Below, piece by piece: positions 11,248 through 20,784 of a DNA stretch of 24,034 nt. The number at the start of each line of letters is the position of its first letter. Positions within the stretch are counted from its first letter, which is position 1. The translations under genes and the position numbers were made by a program. Source of the DNA: a virus; IMG/VR virus record IMGVR_UViG_3300027375_000014, positions 1 to 24,034 of that record. One strand, given 5' to 3'. The notes beneath the pieces are model-generated. The model was given only the letters and a program-made list of their open reading frames with translations. It ran no database searches and was not told where the DNA came from.

Positions 11248-12417
11248 TTATCTGATTGAATATTTGCCATAATTAGGTCGGTTAAATGAATTGAATATAG
11301 CATACCTAGAAGCATCAATACCGTGGTTAAAAGCATCCACTGGCCTATTGGTAGCCTTGCCGTCTTTGTCCTGAATATACTTGTAGTTTCTGAACTCCTT
11401 AATTAAATTAGTTGATCGTGTGGTAATATGTATTTTGTAACGCCTCATCATATCAATTCCAATATTTATACTATCTGGGCCTTTAGCCGTTGGTTTTACA
11501 TTAAATCCATATGAATGAATCTCATTGATGGACTTCGGTTCGCTTGAATCAGCAAATATATTTACTCGCCTATCTATGTTTAGCGACCTCATAACATCTA
11601 CAATATCCTTGTTTGTCATTCCGTTCTGATAAATATGCTCATCAAGGTATATCTTATCGTCATAAAGATAAACAGAAACCAAGGCCGTAGGATCTTGGGT
11701 ATATCCAAAGTCTAAACCATAAGCAATGAATCGAGCTTCTTGTGGTATATTGCCAATCTCCTCGTAATTAAATACCAATAGTTTTGATTGAGCTTTTTGT
11801 CCAAGTCCATAGATTCTCCAATATGTCTCGTCAACTTCCTTTAACCGTTCAATCTCTGCCACCAGGTTAGCATCAAGGAATGGATTGTCTTTATATGTGG
11901 TTACAAAAAACTCCGCATCAGGTCTTGGGATGATATTATCATAAAGCCAGTGATACTCTTCGGATGGATTAAAGTCAATTATTACCTTGTCCGTTGTTCT
12001 TATATTTAATTGGAAGAAATCTTCCCATTTAAGCTCATTGCCCTCATTGACAAACAATAAGTGCCTTTTGCGACCTCTAATCTTTTGTGGTTCATCCAAG
12101 CTTACAAACTCAACCACATTGGAATTAAGATGATATTCATTAACAGACTTGTAGTGATCCTCTTCGTTATATAAATCATATTTGCGGAGTAACTCAAAAA
12201 AGTCCCTCATCACTGATCCACGAAGTGCTGGGCCGTGTTTCCTTACTATTGAAATTATTTTGTTTTGATTGGATAAGCAATACTTGAATATAATCCAAAT
12301 AAGGATATTGTAAGTCTTACCAGACCTTGTGCCTCCTTGCTCAATGGTAAATCTTTTAGCGCTTTTCTCAAGGTGCGAGAAAACACAATTACTCTTCAAG
12401 TTTATTGATAACTTCAA
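11248..12417 (-). CDS. terL: Terminase large subunit
   Basis: This is the packaging motor ATPase and nuclease, 389 residues, a normal length. The Walker A site is GGTRSGKT (28-35). The Walker B strand is LLFVNEG (120-126) with Glu125. The RNase H-like nuclease domain shows GLDFGYTQDPTA (Asp236), FADSSEPKSI (Asp290) and VDAFNHGIDASRYA (Asp361 or Asp368). This is the PBSX/Terminase_3 type arrangement. It overlaps the small subunit gene by 29 bases. The promoter of the next unit follows its end. No portal gene comes after it, which is unusual. Confidence 0.95.
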   Translation of the reverse strand: MKLSINLKSNCVFSHLEKSAKRFTIEQGGTRSGKTYNILIWIIFKYCLSNQNKIISIVRKHGPALRGSVMRDFFELLRKYDLYNEEDHYKSVNEYHLNSNVVEFVSLDEPQKIRGRKRHLLFVNEGNELKWEDFFQLNIRTTDKVIIDFNPSEEYHWLYDNIIPRPDAEFFVTTYKDNPFLDANLVAEIERLKEVDETYWRIYGLGQKAQSKLLVFNYEEIGNIPQEARFIAYGLDFGYTQDPTALVSVYLYDDKIYLDEHIYQNGMTNKDIVDVMRSLNIDRRVNIFADSSEPKSINEIHSYGFNVKPTAKGPDSINIGIDMMRRYKIHITTRSTNLIKEFRNYKYIQDKDGKATNRPVDAFNHGIDASRYAIFNSFNRPNYGKYSIR

Positions 12418-15712: not shown

Positions 15713-16133
15713 ATTCTTTATAAATGATTAATAAGTCATTGATCATATCTTGCCAGGCTTTAGGATTGCAAGTGCAAGGTCTATAAAATTTCCTTGAGTG
15801 AAATACTCTATTCCAAATAGTAGCAATTTCGTCGCCTTCTTGTTTAGTCAAGGTTGTATTGTTTACCTTTTGAAACTCGGTTAAATAGTTAAACTCGTTT
15901 TCTGTCAAGCACAATGGTTGCTTGTAACGGAATAACTTATTAAGCTTCTCTTTACGCTCTTCGCATCCGCAGTCTTCTCCAGCAATGAACTTGACTAATT
16001 TATCAATCCCAGTCGCTTTGGTTACCTTCGCAATCGTGTCCCCCAAACCTAATGATGGTTGTTCTTGTGTTTCTTGACTCTCGATATGCTCGATAATCGT
16101 TTTTTGTTTGTTTTTTAAGTTTTTCTTTTGCAT
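15699..16133 (-). CDS. Conserved Cys-containing phage protein
   Basis: The product has 144 residues. The tract GLGDTIAKVTKATGI (29-43), KLVKFIAGEDCGCEERKEK (45-63), KLNKLF, then CLTENE and a final CTCNPKAWQDMI show two paired-Cys sites (CGC and CTC) likely to bind a metal. I recall this protein as frequent in Bacteroidota phages, with no known function. The first 40 residues are encoded in a 131-base overlap with the end of the sigma-like gene. A DNA- or RNA polymerase-associated role would fit the neighbour, but that is inference. Confidence 0.7.
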   Translation of the reverse strand: MQKKNLKNKQKTIIEHIESQETQEQPSLGLGDTIAKVTKATGIDKLVKFIAGEDCGCEERKEKLNKLFRYKQPLCLTENEFNYLTEFQKVNNTTLTKQEGDEIATIWNRVFHSRKFYRPCTCNPKAWQDMINDLLIIYKEYGVN

Positions 16134-16593
16134 TTTTTATTGTGTTAAATATTGAATGTACTCCAATCCCAGTGCTTTTGGCAATGTCTCTTAAACTACA
16201 ACCATTTACAAAGTACAATTCAAGAAGCATTTGCTCATATTCACCGAAGCCCTGGATGATTCGTTTAAGTTTATGTATTAATACCTGATATTTTTGCTCT
16301 TGGTCATCAACTGGCTCAAGCTCATATTCAAAATTGGTAAAATCCGCACCGTATTCCTTGCGTTTGTGGAAGTCGTAATATAGATTCTGAATCACTTTAA
16401 ACACATAAACAGTATTAATGCCTCCAGAATAATTGATTAACTTATCTAAATTCCCCTCTTTGATTTGCAGTTCGCCTATTTTTAAGTACATCTGTTGCAC
16501 AATTTCCTTTGCCGTCGCTGAATCCGCCCCTAAATAGTTCGCTATTTTAAGCCATTCTTTGTGCTTATTGGCAAAGTCTTGAAGCGTTAACAT
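16003..16593 (-). CDS. Sigma-70-like RNA polymerase sigma factor
   Basis: The product has 196 residues. The N-terminal half (about 20-95, with ATAKEIVQQMYLKIGELQ and VFKVIQNLYYDFHKRKEYG) fits sigma region 2. The part at about 135-180 (MLLELYFVNGCSLRDIAKSTG followed by IGVHSIFNTIKNAKEKL) fits the region 4 helix-turn-helix. A phage sigma factor would switch host polymerase to a later gene class. The last 40 or so residues lie past region 4 and overlap the next gene by 131 bases. The VRR-NUC stop overlaps its start by seven bases. It could be a transcription regulator with only the region 4 fold. Confidence 0.75.
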   Translation of the reverse strand: MLTLQDFANKHKEWLKIANYLGADSATAKEIVQQMYLKIGELQIKEGNLDKLINYSGGINTVYVFKVIQNLYYDFHKRKEYGADFTNFEYELEPVDDQEQKYQVLIHKLKRIIQGFGEYEQMLLELYFVNGCSLRDIAKSTGIGVHSIFNTIKNAKEKLKKQTKNDYRAYRESRNTRTTIIRFGGHDCEGNQSDWD

Positions 16594-16934
16594 AGGTATT
16601 CTTTTATTTTGGCCTCAAAGTCTTCAAATGAATAACAAACAATATATTTGAATCCGCTATCCTCGACATCCTTTTGCCATTCCTTTTGAGTATCTGTTTG
16701 TTTATTAGGCTTGATTTTCATCTCGATGCACAAACCGTGGTAGTTTTCTGTTGGTTTTAGCAAGACAAGGTCAGCCACTCCAGACAAAACACCCTCGGCT
16801 TTTAATAGTTTAGCCGTTATAAGTGAGCGTTTGCCACCATTAGGCACTGCAAATAACAGTCTTGCAAGTTTAGGATAGTTAAACCTAAACCATTTGACGC
16901 ACATTATCTGCAATTTGCTTTCCTCGTGTTTCAT
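16587..16934 (-). CDS. VRR-NUC domain nuclease
   Basis: The product has 115 residues from the ATG at 16934. A start six codons earlier exists, but the chosen ATG overlaps the stop of the small membrane gene (ATGA). Motifs are HEESKLQ at the front, FAVPNGGKRS (28-37), GVADLVLL (52-59, Asp55), the catalytic pair in EMK (Glu71, Lys73) and a later Gln83 in DTQKEW. This is a single-domain VRR-NUC, a PD-(D/E)XK nuclease type found in phages and acting on branched or replicating DNA. Its place next to replication genes fits. Confidence 0.87.
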   Translation of the reverse strand: MKHEESKLQIMCVKWFRFNYPKLARLLFAVPNGGKRSLITAKLLKAEGVLSGVADLVLLKPTENYHGLCIEMKIKPNKQTDTQKEWQKDVEDSGFKYIVCYSFEDFEAKIKEYLC

Positions 16935-17032
16935 AAACTTGCCCAAACACAAAGTGCGAGTAACCCAAGCATCCCAAGTATAAAAAATACAATGGCTTGC
17001 ATTAGTTGGTATTTGTCGTCGTCGTTATACAT
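16931..17032 (-). CDS. Tiny single-pass membrane protein, 33 residues
   Basis: The product starts MYNDDDKYQLMQ with an acidic front. One hydrophobic helix (about 11-32, with IVFFILGMLGLLALCVW) follows and the protein ends WASL. The ATG overlaps the end of the gene before it by eight bases, and the TGA overlaps the nuclease ATG (ATGA). It fills the only gap here. The acidic N-terminus and its length match neither holins nor signal peptides clearly; the function is unknown. Confidence 0.6.
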   Translation of the reverse strand: MYNDDDKYQLMQAIVFFILGMLGLLALCVWASL

Positions 17033-17382: not shown

Positions 17383-17617
17383 TTCTGTAGTGTTTAAAGT
17401 ACATTACTTTAAATTCCTCATAAGATAGCATCGAAATAAACTCCATCCCACCACTATAAATACTTGTGTACTCTAACCCATCGTAGTCAATGTACTTGCC
17501 AAATGAATCTATGTGTATGAATAACCTTGGAGCAATATCACATTCAGACATAACATATCCCTCATCTTCATTCTCGAGTTGGGCATCGGTTAGCTGAAAT
17601 ATGTCAAGCTCAAGCAT
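17375..17617 (-). CDS. Acidic hypothetical protein, 80 residues
   Basis: The product begins MLELDIFQLTDAQLENEDEG. It is strongly acidic and contains aromatic-rich stretches such as FGKYIDYDGLEYTSIY (about 39-54). No membrane segment or motif was recognised. The ATG shares one base with the stop of the metallophosphoesterase (TAATG), so the two are co-translated. It ends the replication-side operon; a weak hairpin overlaps its stop. A function as DNA mimic or inhibitor cannot be shown from composition alone. Confidence 0.65.
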   Translation of the reverse strand: MLELDIFQLTDAQLENEDEGYVMSECDIAPRLFIHIDSFGKYIDYDGLEYTSIYSGGMEFISMLSYEEFKVMYFKHYRIT

Positions 17618-18612
17618 TAGTATATTTCTTTAGTAAAATAGTCAATACGCTTGTTGTGTACTCGGTAGTTTCCGTTTTCTTTAATCTCAATCATTGCAAA
17701 TCCCTGATTGTGTTTGGTGTTAAACGGATCATAATCAGGGGCGAGTTCGCATAAGCATCCAGTTGAGTATGTGGTTGATAGTTCGTGATTCAATATGCTT
17801 TCGGAGTGTTCAGATGTGGTATGGCAATGACCAATAAGCATTGATGACTTAATACGATTGTAAACGCCTCTCGCTGGGTTAACTGGACTAAAGAATCCCT
17901 TTACTATCATATGGCCGTGCGTCATAGGTAATTTGCCAGCCATCAAGATTACATTTTGATCGTGCCAAATGATATTCTTTTCTCTTAATTTAAGTCTTGA
18001 AGATAGTGTGTAATATTCATCGTGAAACAATGCTGGTGCTTTTTTCATCAAGTAACGCTTATACCAGTTGTCGTGGTTGCCTTCGATCCAATGTATCGGG
18101 CATTTGAAACGGTCATTAAGCATATCCAAAAAATCAGAAACCATTTCAAACCATTGACGGATTTCTGAATACAATGGTGGCGGAGCATCGTGGCTTGTGA
18201 ATGGCTCGTTGTCTAAAATATCACCCCCTAAAACTATGCAGTCAATCTTATTATCTAACCCAAATTGCAATGCACTTGTTAAAGCTTCATTGTCTTGGTT
18301 AGGGAAGTGTATATCACTTAACCAAAGCACTCTTGTGGCCCCTTCAATCTTTACAAATTTTCTGACATTGGCCCTTGATTCTGGCAAACCAAATGGGTTT
18401 TCTCTTGATTGAATCCTTTCTGTTTTGATTGGATTTTTAAGCTTTGACCATCTACCTGAATGTTGGCTTAAAATTGTTCTGGCTGCACTATAATTAGTGA
18501 ATAGTGTTGGATAATGCTCCATAAGTAACTGTGCAAGTGTACGAATGGATGATTGAGGATATTTAGCAAGGTATTCCCTTACTATTAATCCTTTTTTGCT
18601 GATTTGCCCCAT
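17617..18612 (-). CDS. Calcineurin-like metallophosphoesterase
   Basis: The product has 331 residues. The catalytic motifs are in order: LSDIHFP with Asp100 and His102, GGDILD (129-134), GNHDNW (178-183), THGH (231-234) and GHCH (261-264). These bind two metal ions for phosphoester hydrolysis. Before them, residues 1-90 form a basic region with a possible helix-turn-helix (about 8-55, REYLAKYPQSSIRTLAQLL). Phage members are generally taken as phosphatases or nucleases in DNA metabolism; the substrate here is not visible. It follows the replication genes. Confidence 0.85.
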   Translation of the reverse strand: MGQISKKGLIVREYLAKYPQSSIRTLAQLLMEHYPTLFTNYSAARTILSQHSGRWSKLKNPIKTERIQSRENPFGLPESRANVRKFVKIEGATRVLWLSDIHFPNQDNEALTSALQFGLDNKIDCIVLGGDILDNEPFTSHDAPPPLYSEIRQWFEMVSDFLDMLNDRFKCPIHWIEGNHDNWYKRYLMKKAPALFHDEYYTLSSRLKLREKNIIWHDQNVILMAGKLPMTHGHMIVKGFFSPVNPARGVYNRIKSSMLIGHCHTTSEHSESILNHELSTTYSTGCLCELAPDYDPFNTKHNQGFAMIEIKENGNYRVHNKRIDYFTKEIY

Positions 18613-18641: not shown

Positions 18642-18887
18642 TTACTCATATGCTCCAGTCGTTGTGTTTCTTGTCTCTTCCGATTTCTGTACTTCAGTAT
18701 GCGTCAAGCCTTCAAAACTGAATCCCAAACTTTTAATAACTTCAACTTGTAAAACCTTTACTGGTTCTTTAAAATAGCGTTTACGATGGAAATACCCATC
18801 GGTGTGCTTATACACGACATCTTTAACCCACTTTGGCCCTTTGTCCGTTTGCACTAATAAATTAGCTCTGAATATTTCTGTTGGCAT
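18642..18887 (-). CDS. Hypothetical protein, 81 residues
   Basis: This is taken from the ATG at 18887 (MPTEIFRANLLVQTDKG). An upstream in-frame start would lengthen the overlap with the gene before it from 26 to 59 bases. The front half looks beta-rich and basic (KWVKDVVYKH), and the end is polar. The family was not recognised. It lies between the replication accessory gene and the metallophosphoesterase, in the same direction and with close spacing. Confidence 0.6.
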   Translation of the reverse strand: MPTEIFRANLLVQTDKGPKWVKDVVYKHTDGYFHRKRYFKEPVKVLQVEVIKSLGFSFEGLTHTEVQKSEETRNTTTGAYE

Positions 18888-19518
18888 AGCAAGTTCTATA
18901 ATGAAGACAAACACAAGCAAACATTCTCCAGTTGATATTTGGCAAGGAGAAGTTGTTAATGAATGTCATAAATGGGTTATTTTTCGTTTGGTCTCTTTTG
19001 TATTTATCTTCCAAAGCCAGTTTCAATTCGCTGATCATAATTTCAAGTACAAACTCTGGATATTGCATATCGTCGAATGTGCGAATGAACTCGTATTTAG
19101 AGCTAAAAAACATTGGGAACGAATCAAACTTTTTAGTCTCTTCGTACTCATACCAAACCTTCCTCATATCTTCATACCCCTGGCGTTCCTCCTCTGGAGT
19201 AAGCTTAACAAAGTTTTCAGTCTTTTTAACTTGTGGCTTTTGGATGTCAATTTCACCGAGCAACCCACTATTGATTGCCTTATAGATAACTGTGGCTACA
19301 AATTGAGCGTTTAGTCGCTCTGGCTTCTTTACATCAATTATGCCCATAATCCATTTGTCCATTGAATCCTTAATGACATTAATATTGTATTTGCCATAGT
19401 TTTGTTTGATAAATTCAACAATCTCCGCTGGATATTTCGGGATGTCAAGGTCGGCTAACATACATACATTCTCGAGTATCTTGCCTAATTCTTTATTTTG
19501 TGCGTCTTTAATGTACAT
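18862..19518 (-). CDS. Replication accessory protein, possible helicase loader
   Basis: The product has 218 residues and follows the replication initiator gene after a single base. It looks helical. The front third contains EIVEFIKQNYGKYNINVIK (about 32-50) and MGIIDVKKPERLNAQFVATV (about 58-77), a layout that I associate with helicase-loader-like proteins next to phage initiators. No Walker motif is visible, so it is not an AAA+ loader. Residues from about 110 on are charged and less typical. The role is inferred mainly from its neighbour. Confidence 0.5.
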   Translation of the reverse strand: MYIKDAQNKELGKILENVCMLADLDIPKYPAEIVEFIKQNYGKYNINVIKDSMDKWIMGIIDVKKPERLNAQFVATVIYKAINSGLLGEIDIQKPQVKKTENFVKLTPEEERQGYEDMRKVWYEYEETKKFDSFPMFFSSKYEFIRTFDDMQYPEFVLEIMISELKLALEDKYKRDQTKNNPFMTFINNFSLPNINWRMFACVCLHYRTCYANRNIQS

Positions 19519-19519
19519 A

Positions 19520-20179
19520 TTATTCCCAGATTATTTCTTTATATTCTTGTTTAGGCTTAATCTCATCGTCCCATCTTTCTTGGTTTAAATAAGTCATTGG
19601 ATGCGGATGAGAATAAGTTTCAAATGGTTTGTATTTTGCAAATGTAAAAATTGTTTCTTTAATTTTTTGTCTTTTCTCTTCGGAAAGATTTTTATATTTA
19701 TCCTTACATTTTTCTTTAGCAACTTTATTTGGATAAGCTTCCCAAAATTCGTCAAAACTAAATATAGTTTCTTTATCTTTATCTTGTTCTTTATCCATAT
19801 CCTTATCTTTATCTTTATCCTTAGCACCTTGTAAGGGGCTTATAAGGGGCTTAATTTTATATTTTTTATGAATTGATATAATTGATAAATGAACTCTATT
19901 TAAAGGATTTAATTCTCCATATTGAAAATCTATAAAATCCTTAATAAACCATTTTTGACCGTCATCAAATACCTGGATATGGTTGCCGAAAATTTTTATT
20001 GCATCATTAAAATCAATTTCACATCCGATTCTAATTTTAGCAACATCCTCATCTACTTGCCATATCCCAGCGTGATCGCAATCATCTAAAATATAAAACC
20101 AAAGGAGCTTGTAAGGTGCTTGTAAGCCTCTTATAAAGGGCTTATTCCATTTTGTTGTGTCAGTGAATCTTTTTGCCAT
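19520..20179 (-). CDS. Replication initiator-like protein
   Basis: The product has 219 residues. The N-terminal domain (1-105) has FTDTTKWNKPFIRGLQ, LLWFYILDDCDHAGIW (25-40) and WFIKDFIDFQYGEL. It resembles the winged-helix start domains of phage replication proteins. A linker of alternating Lys and Asp follows (119-137). The C-terminal part (140-215, with FDEFWEAYPNKVAKEK) resembles the end domain of DnaT/replisome-organiser-type proteins. Two clusters of 11-bp DNA repeats lie in its coding sequence, as expected if it binds an origin in its own gene. The next gene may load the helicase. Confidence 0.7.
   Translation of the reverse strand: MAKRFTDTTKWNKPFIRGLQAPYKLLWFYILDDCDHAGIWQVDEDVAKIRIGCEIDFNDAIKIFGNHIQVFDDGQKWFIKDFIDFQYGELNPLNRVHLSIISIHKKYKIKPLISPLQGAKDKDKDKDMDKEQDKDKETIFSFDEFWEAYPNKVAKEKCKDKYKNLSEEKRQKIKETIFTFAKYKPFETYSHPHPMTYLNQERWDDEIKPKQEYKEIIWE
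19820..19852 (-). repeat. Three 11-bp iterons (origin cluster A)
   Basis: Read on the plus strand, CTTAGCACCTT, GTAAGGGGCTT and ATAAGGGGCTT are contiguous. They lie within the initiator gene where it encodes KPLISPLQGAK. Just to their left, plus-strand repeats of TTTATC-like hexamers (the Lys/Asp linker) form an AT-rich tract that could be an unwinding element. Confidence 0.55.
20100..20143 (-). repeat. Four 11-bp iterons (origin cluster B)
   Basis: Read on the plus strand, CAAAGGAGCTT, GTAAGGTGCTT, GTAAGCCTCTT and ATAAAGGGCTT are contiguous 11-base units. All end in CTT, and most begin GTAAG or ATAAA/G. They encode KPFIRGLQAPYKLLW in the initiator. Cluster A, 248 bases away, has the same period and nearly the same sequence. 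Confidence 0.55.
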
Positions 20180-20181
20180 AA

Positions 20182-20667
20182 TTAAAAACCCTCATTTTCA
20201 TATTTAATATTTGTATCCCAATATTCAAAAGACAATCCATATATATCTACATTATATAAATAAATATTTGCATTTATAAATAAATCATTAATAAAATAAA
20301 TTTGTGGGTTTTTCTTTACCGAATAACCGATTAAAACAATTTCATAAGTAATTTCAAAGTTTTTAAATTTACCTCGTTTATATAAATATCTTTGAAGGCC
20401 TTTTAAATAACTTGATACTTGGCCAAAAGTATTTAAATCTAATTCTCTTTGTTTTAATTCATAAATAGTTATATGTAAAGCTGGAGTAAAATTACCTAAA
20501 TGAGAATAATCGTATGATTTTTCAAATGTAATTAAATCGGCTCTACCATACCTACCTAAATTAACTTGGCTTTTCTTTTTACCATAAATTGGTAACCCTT
20601 TTTGATTTAACACCTCATTTGGTGTTGTTAGAATAATGTTTTCTAATTTTTTTTCAATAATATCCAT
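20182..20667 (-). CDS. PD-(D/E)XK-like nuclease
   Basis: The product has 161 residues from the ATG at 20667. A start six codons earlier would lie inside the T run of the RNA hairpin. Visible features are GRADLITFE (Asp44), ITIYELKQRELDL (Glu70, Lys72), then FGQVSSYLKGLQRYL with Gln83. This is the usual order of a PD-(D/E)XK core (D...E-x-K...Q). It lies directly before the replication initiator, with a two-base gap, and directly behind the structured RNA. It could act on replication intermediates or host DNA. The acidic residue and spacing fit, but the fold is not proven. Confidence 0.6.
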   Translation of the reverse strand: MDIIEKKLENIILTTPNEVLNQKGLPIYGKKKSQVNLGRYGRADLITFEKSYDYSHLGNFTPALHITIYELKQRELDLNTFGQVSSYLKGLQRYLYKRGKFKNFEITYEIVLIGYSVKKNPQIYFINDLFINANIYLYNVDIYGLSFEYWDTNIKYENEGF

Positions 20668-20672
20668 AAAAT

Positions 20673-20784
20673 AAAAAAAGAGCAATAACTTTCAAAGACT
20701 TTCGCGTGGGTTCAAGATTACCCAGTCTTTTACTTGCTATTGCTCTATTTAAAATTAGTTTCATCTTGATTTAGGACGCGAATC
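20673..20784 (-). ncRNA. Structured RNA or attenuator with loop/bulge complementarity
   Basis: On the minus strand AGAGCAATA (20746-20738) pairs with TATTGCTCT (20687-20679), and AAAGACT (20730-20724) with AGTCTTT (20700-20694). GGGT/ACCC (20723-20720, 20711-20708) closes the tip, and a T run follows at 20679-20673. The apical loop (ATCTTGA within 20719-20712) and the seven-base bulge ACGCGAA (20707-20701) are both unpaired. Both are complementary, in the right order, to 5' segments TCAAGAT (20769-20763) and TTCGCGT (20782-20776). The promoter lies seven bases before the proposed start. It may be a stand-alone RNA or a leader controlling the nuclease and initiator genes. The start and end points are estimates. 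Confidence 0.7.

Follow-up and report, generated by a model that had tools for sequence, protein, structure and literature searches.

Initiator gene and its surroundings

The window, by which we mean the whole 24,034-nucleotide stretch of viral DNA that was analyzed, can be identified as a tailed-phage genome because it carries genes for a terminase large subunit, a VRR-NUC nuclease and a metallophosphoesterase. The features with a bearing on replication are centered on a single gene for a predicted replication initiator and are arranged as follows:

19520..20179, minus strand: replication initiator gene (219 aa), an open reading frame whose product matches PHROG 270 and 9474 in its C-terminal part
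19862..20179, minus strand: codons 1-106 of this gene, coding for a predicted winged-helix DNA-binding domain (AlphaFold2 model and structural matches)
19760..19861, minus strand: codons 107-140, coding for a linker of low pLDDT; this DNA carries cluster B and the hexamer tract
19523..19759, minus strand: codons 141-219, coding for a C-terminal domain common to many other phage initiators (PHROG matches, tblastn)
20102..20143, no strand assigned: cluster A, in which four 9-bp sites recur every 11 bp at the gene's 5′ end, an optional and putatively auxiliary or regulatory array (array score, B-site matrix)
19822..19852, no strand assigned: cluster B, in which three 9-bp sites recur every 11 bp, the proposed initiator-binding core of the origin (array scan, homologues, synonymous conservation)
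19770-19823, no strand assigned: hexamer tract of 76% A+T, with the unit reading GATAAA along the gene strand, a proposed melting or helicase-loading stretch (Tandem Repeats Finder)
19850..19903, no strand assigned: 87% A+T stretch on the opposite side of cluster B, ranking third among the least stable 54-bp stretches in the window, an alternative melting site
18862..19518, minus strand: the next gene (218 aa), a possible helicase loader by position only, kept at 98-100% protein identity in phages with swapped initiators
11248-12417, 16587-16952 and 17617-18612, minus strand: genes for the terminase large subunit, the VRR-NUC nuclease and the metallophosphoesterase, respectively

The product of 19520-20179 is predicted to be a DNA-binding replication initiator from its PHROG families and a winged-helix model. 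Its C-terminal part matches two PHROG families of replication initiation proteins (270, E 3.8e-12; 9474, E 3.5e-10), and tblastn matches in phage records are almost confined to this same domain. Across 28 aligned homologues, the PHROG matches include “DnaD-like helicase loader” (13) and “replication initiation O-like”, the latter being matched by 3 of the 28 family members (best E 6.5e-12) and not by the protein of the window itself. In the predicted structure, the winged helix is confident over approximately residues 10-106 (block-mean AlphaFold2 pLDDT of 80-96 for residues 11-110), the linker falls to a pLDDT below 50 at residues 114-138, and the C-terminal part is helical and less certain. 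The structural matches of the model are winged-helix domains, namely those of CRP, CodY, Cdc6/ORC and pPS10 RepA; they are modest (Z of at most 5.8) and point only to a generic winged helix, and a Foldseek search of the full-length model against the PDB retrieved nothing significant (best E 0.42). When projected onto this architecture, cluster A encodes the first helices of the initiator, and cluster B together with the hexamer tract encodes the linker.

The product of the gene following the initiator (18862-19518) shows no informative family match and no recognizable helicase or loader motif; in relatives, the same region codes for a DnaB-type helicase domain (L003) or gives AAA matches below the cut-off (L018, L053). 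On the other side of the initiator, the gene upstream contains the 54-bp stretch with the lowest stability in the whole window (20239-20292), which is 91% A+T and features a 21-bp tandem repeat. GC skew, proposed as a check in the sequence-only reading of this DNA, gives no turning point across the window, where all genes run in one direction and could hide such a switch. A DnaA-dependent origin of the oriC type was considered and rejected, as neither TTATCCACA nor TTWTNCACA occurs on either strand of the window.

Repeat clusters and the case for selection on DNA

The sequence-only reading had reported seven 11-base units in the initiator gene, and all of them are present at positions correct to within 2 bases. 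A matrix built on the repeat units and scanned over the whole window places the units of cluster B at 19822, 19833 and 19844 (TAGCACCTT on the plus strand, AAGGGGCTT twice) and those of cluster A at 20102, 20113, 20124 and 20135 (AAGGAGCTT, AAGGTGCTT, AAGCCTCTT and AAAGGGCTT). The unit takes the form of 9 bp, approximately AAG-N3-CTT, with a 2-bp spacer, and its orientations are mixed; this fits the units better than the TAAGG/AGC core of the earlier description. The AT-rich hexamer tract said to adjoin the second group of repeats was located at 19770-19823, and the two similar peptides attributed to the clusters, KPFIRGLQ and KPLISPLQ, are indeed encoded by them.

In the 24-kb window, cluster B ranks first (23/27) and cluster A second (22/27) when scored as three 9-mers at 11-bp spacing in either orientation, and A ranks first among four-unit 11-bp arrays (43/54). 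When 60 sequences of 24 kb were simulated under a Markov model, B's three-unit score was attained 3 times, whereas no four-unit array scored above 40 and A was never equaled. Cluster B by itself in a single genome is only marginally beyond chance, and it is the homologues that make the case. The second-best four-unit 11-bp array of the window lies at 16097-16142 (score 39) and is probably a chance occurrence; the simulations also give scores of 39-40.

We assembled 80 homologues from viral contigs and added 11 found in genome bins, another 54 from viral contigs (the sets overlap in part) and one from a phage record. Homologues whose units are flipped escape a direct-repeat lag test, and a mixed-orientation test was used instead. 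By this test, the best 11-bp array of the whole gene sits at the linker in 29 of the 31 genes tested, with p <=0.05 against synonymous-codon shuffles for 28 of those 29. In a set of 64 nonredundant homologues, 57 have a B-region array beyond the synonymous-codon expectation (approximately 3 expected), and 11 bp yields the top mean score among the 11 spacings tested (21.2 vs 15.0-17.1). Once degeneracy and pairwise divergence are corrected for, synonymous-codon identity is maximal exactly at B in two clades that were analyzed separately: 0.84 against an expected 0.50 in one (gene-wide p 0.01) and 0.99 against 0.66 in the other (0/2000). The core of the array differs by clade, being AAG-N3-CTT, GGTGC/GCACC or AAGGGT/ACCCTT; its units flip orientation among homologues, and the peptides encoded are unrelated. 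Furthermore, a GAYAAR tract of at least three units follows B in 55 of the 64, and in three of these, namely L018, L096 and L097, the reading frame of the tract is shifted, such that L018 has the peptide GQGQ instead of DKDK, with L096 and L097 being less regular.

Because the arrays exceed the synonymous shuffles, the synonymous peak falls at B, and both frame and orientation change among the homologues, these comparisons indicate that cluster B is an element selected as DNA, beyond the protein that it encodes. The same data contradict the proposal that the repeats arise incidentally from constraint on the protein, wherein similar peptides and a charged DKDK linker would be selected and the DNA would merely follow codon use. 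That proposal can draw on the likeness of KPFIRGLQ and KPLISPLQ and on the overlap of cluster A with conserved residues, but it is left barely credible by the excess over synonymous shuffles, by the synonymous peak, and by the persistence of the 11-bp array over unrelated peptides and of the tract in another frame. The DNA-level conservation beyond protein constraint, for which the sequence-only reading had turned to homologues, is therefore strongly borne out for cluster B by the 57 of 64 and the synonymous peak. The contrary pattern that it had named, a protein kept without the 11-base period, is confined to a few homologues: L119 and L143 keep the protein, but neither an 11-bp array nor a hexamer tract was found in their linkers, and their origins may have moved elsewhere. 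A different arrangement is seen in L019, in which cluster A is significant and the linker with cluster B and the tract is absent after approximately residue 98 of the initiator, as if deleted or rearranged.

Cluster A presents another picture, and the sequence-only reading, which had built its candidate origin on both clusters, holds up for B and has to be tempered for A. The A region is significant in 23 of the 64 nonredundant homologues (approximately 3 expected). With an 11-bp phased matrix derived from the B sites of other genomes, it stands above synonymous shuffles in 9 of 10 genes of the close clade (p <=0.014); the window is one of these nine, and for its own cluster A none of 500 synonymous shuffles reaches the score given by such a matrix. 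Significance is lacking for this region in the AAGGGT clade and in L021 and L113, and excess synonymous conservation, sought in two clades, was not seen. When genomes were compared by eye, the A and B cores matched in L096 and L125 and not in L131, L085 or L086, and we therefore claim no co-variation between them. Judged by these sequence matches, cluster A is a real but optional second array; as for its role, auxiliary origin sites or an operator on its own gene would be our guess.

The optional nature of A and its placement near the start codon, where a bound protein would be well positioned as a roadblock, lend some appeal to the view that the arrays are operators only, with an initiator/repressor regulating the replication operon and the origin lying elsewhere. 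Binding for regulation and binding for initiation would indeed predict the same data here. Nevertheless, cluster B is found approximately 330 bp from the start of the gene and adjoins a conserved hexamer tract rich in A+T, a layout that resembles an origin more than an operator, and the experimentally known cases with such a layout (lambda and SPP1) are origins; accordingly, we consider operators without an origin improbable.

Initiator exchange among sister phages

In seven contigs, the gene downstream of the initiator is kept at 98-100% protein identity. One of them has the initiator of the window, and the other six (L166, L168, L169 and L170-L172) have four other initiators, which differ in their N-terminal domains and linkers and are related in the C-terminal domain. 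Around the replaced segment, the DNA is 89-94% identical to the window upstream and 87-88% downstream, with the similarity to the window picking up again inside the part coding for the initiator C-terminal domain; among L168, L169 and L170, homology restarts at the AT tract, immediately past the repeats. The swapped initiators of L166 and L169 have their own 24-bp iterons (full score, p 0.005 against synonymous shuffles), and L168 shows GTGAAAAATTTGCAC-like repeats approximately 24 bp apart, as recognized by eye only; no clear iterons were found in the swapped initiator of L170. These comparisons show that the DNA-binding domain and the linker repeats are inherited as one cassette, which is what would be expected if the linker repeats are the binding sites of that domain.

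The segment replaced in the sister phages (upstream of position 1501 in L166, L168, L169 and L170-L172) takes in the window gene 20182-20685. It is within this gene that one might look for an origin in another AT-rich or repeated stretch nearby, for example 20239-20292, with B reduced to a secondary binding site. Its stability, the lowest of any 54 bp in the window, would favor such a placement, as would its 21-bp tandem repeat; however, it falls within the segment that the sister phages replace, and cluster B and its tract are kept in most homologues, making an origin there highly improbable.

A candidate origin within the linker-coding DNA

Taken together, cluster B and the adjoining AT-rich hexamer tract very probably constitute the replication origin of the phage, lying within the stretch of its own initiator gene that codes for the linker. 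The best reading of the window, by analogy, is an intragenic theta origin that would work like those of lambda O, P22/L gene 18 and SPP1 gene 38. An origin of the lambda O type inside the initiator gene, as the sequence-only reading had suggested, gains support from the DNA-level conservation of B and, independently, from the joint swapping of domain and repeats. Several features expected of this kind of origin are found at the locus: repeats within the gene, selection at the DNA level, an AT-rich neighbor as judged by composition, a predicted initiator, and exchange of initiators along with their own repeats. The kind itself is already known; this member is set apart by 11-bp sites of mixed orientation, a tract that persists when the reading frame changes, a second array that is optional, and a series of swaps occurring in nature.

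From lambda, SPP1 and the iteron plasmids, we infer the following scheme, in which initiator binding leads through melting to helicase loading. The N-terminal winged helix would bind the sites, which at their 11-bp spacing recur once per helical turn and so face the same side of the DNA, to form an O-some-like complex, which would strain and melt the neighboring AT-rich DNA. Such DNA flanks B on both sides, with the 76% tract on one and the 87% stretch on the other; both qualify as unwinding stretches on sequence alone, and the DNA would open at either or both of these candidate melting sites. The C-terminal domain, along with the neighboring loader or helicase, would then put the replicative helicase on the exposed strand, and cluster A might serve the same initiator as an optional second array. 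A more tentative variant, which we regard as possible but unlikely, is that the hexamer tract is a frame-independent single-strand element, (GAYAAR)n, recognized by the initiator or loader for helicase loading, that the DKDK, GQGQ, NKNK and EKEK linkers are its passive translation, and that cluster A is an operator for self-repression.

Several known systems offer parallels. For the Salmonella phage L, six imprecise 11-bp repeats, TGTCCAACGGA, within the initiator gene 18 have been put forward as the origin (PMC8022706). It resembles the window in having 11-bp repeats in the initiator coding sequence and in different initiators carrying different iterons, whereas the repeat sequence is unrelated to that of the window; the phage L origin is likewise a prediction, and the passage on it describes neither a hexamer tract nor a second array. 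Lambda has four 18-bp iterons and an AT-rich stretch in gene O, and the lambda and Stx phage origins share with the window mid-gene iterons in the initiator adjoining an AT-rich stretch; their initiator is followed by helicase-loading genes, and that of the window by a gene that is a possible loader by position only (PMC3349717, PMC7466680). These iterons of 18 bp (four, or six in Stx phages) differ from the 9-bp mixed-orientation sites at 11-bp steps of the window, and the lambda origin is experimentally proven, whereas that of the window is a candidate. The oriL of the Bacillus phage SPP1 similarly features direct repeats and an AT-rich unwinding element inside the origin-binding-protein gene 38; however, its second binding region, oriR, is approximately 13 kb away, whereas cluster A lies in the same gene as B, and its loader gp39 and helicase gp40 have been identified, unlike their counterparts in the window (PMC6316719). 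The RK2 oriV/TrfA system of iteron plasmids has a winged-helix initiator lacking an AAA+ domain, iterons and short repeats in the adjoining AT-rich stretch, but it is a plasmid origin with DnaA boxes, and single-strand binding of the repeats has been demonstrated for RK2 (PMC4081077). In the open-access literature, we found no paper on origins of Bacteroidota phages of the kind seen in the window.

More distant initiators sharing the C-terminal domain include those of the Vibrio phages 1.133.O (L153) and 1.116.O (L158), wherein the 11-bp array is clear: their linkers have 11-bp GACAAACGAAT-like repeats followed by an AT-rich tract, and their N-terminal parts are unlike that of the window. The 11-bp array is also significant in SE-1, ctXG6705 and Asapag, in the last case outside the linker; in most other distant initiators with the same C-terminal domain, it is not significant, and some show other periods. 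The relatives from genome bins belong mostly to Bacteroidota, with some from Elusimicrobia, Gastranaerophilales and Bdellovibrio, although several of these metagenome bins may be mis-assigned. An initiator of the window’s family is also encoded by the Pseudanabaena phage Pan5 (L082, 4001-4807), with a cyanobacterial host on record, the other named relatives being mostly from Bacteroidota bins; this might reflect either a host transfer or a mis-assigned host.

The locus thus offers a candidate origin for a large group of phages, most of them uncultured, whose relatives come from bins of Bacteroidota and of a few other phyla. It also suggests a practical rule: where the linker repeats of a phage initiator gene persist although peptide and reading frame change, they probably mark the origin. 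Initiator swapping among the sister phages amounts to a natural experiment on why origins lie within initiator genes, as the DNA-binding domain and its target sites would travel together.
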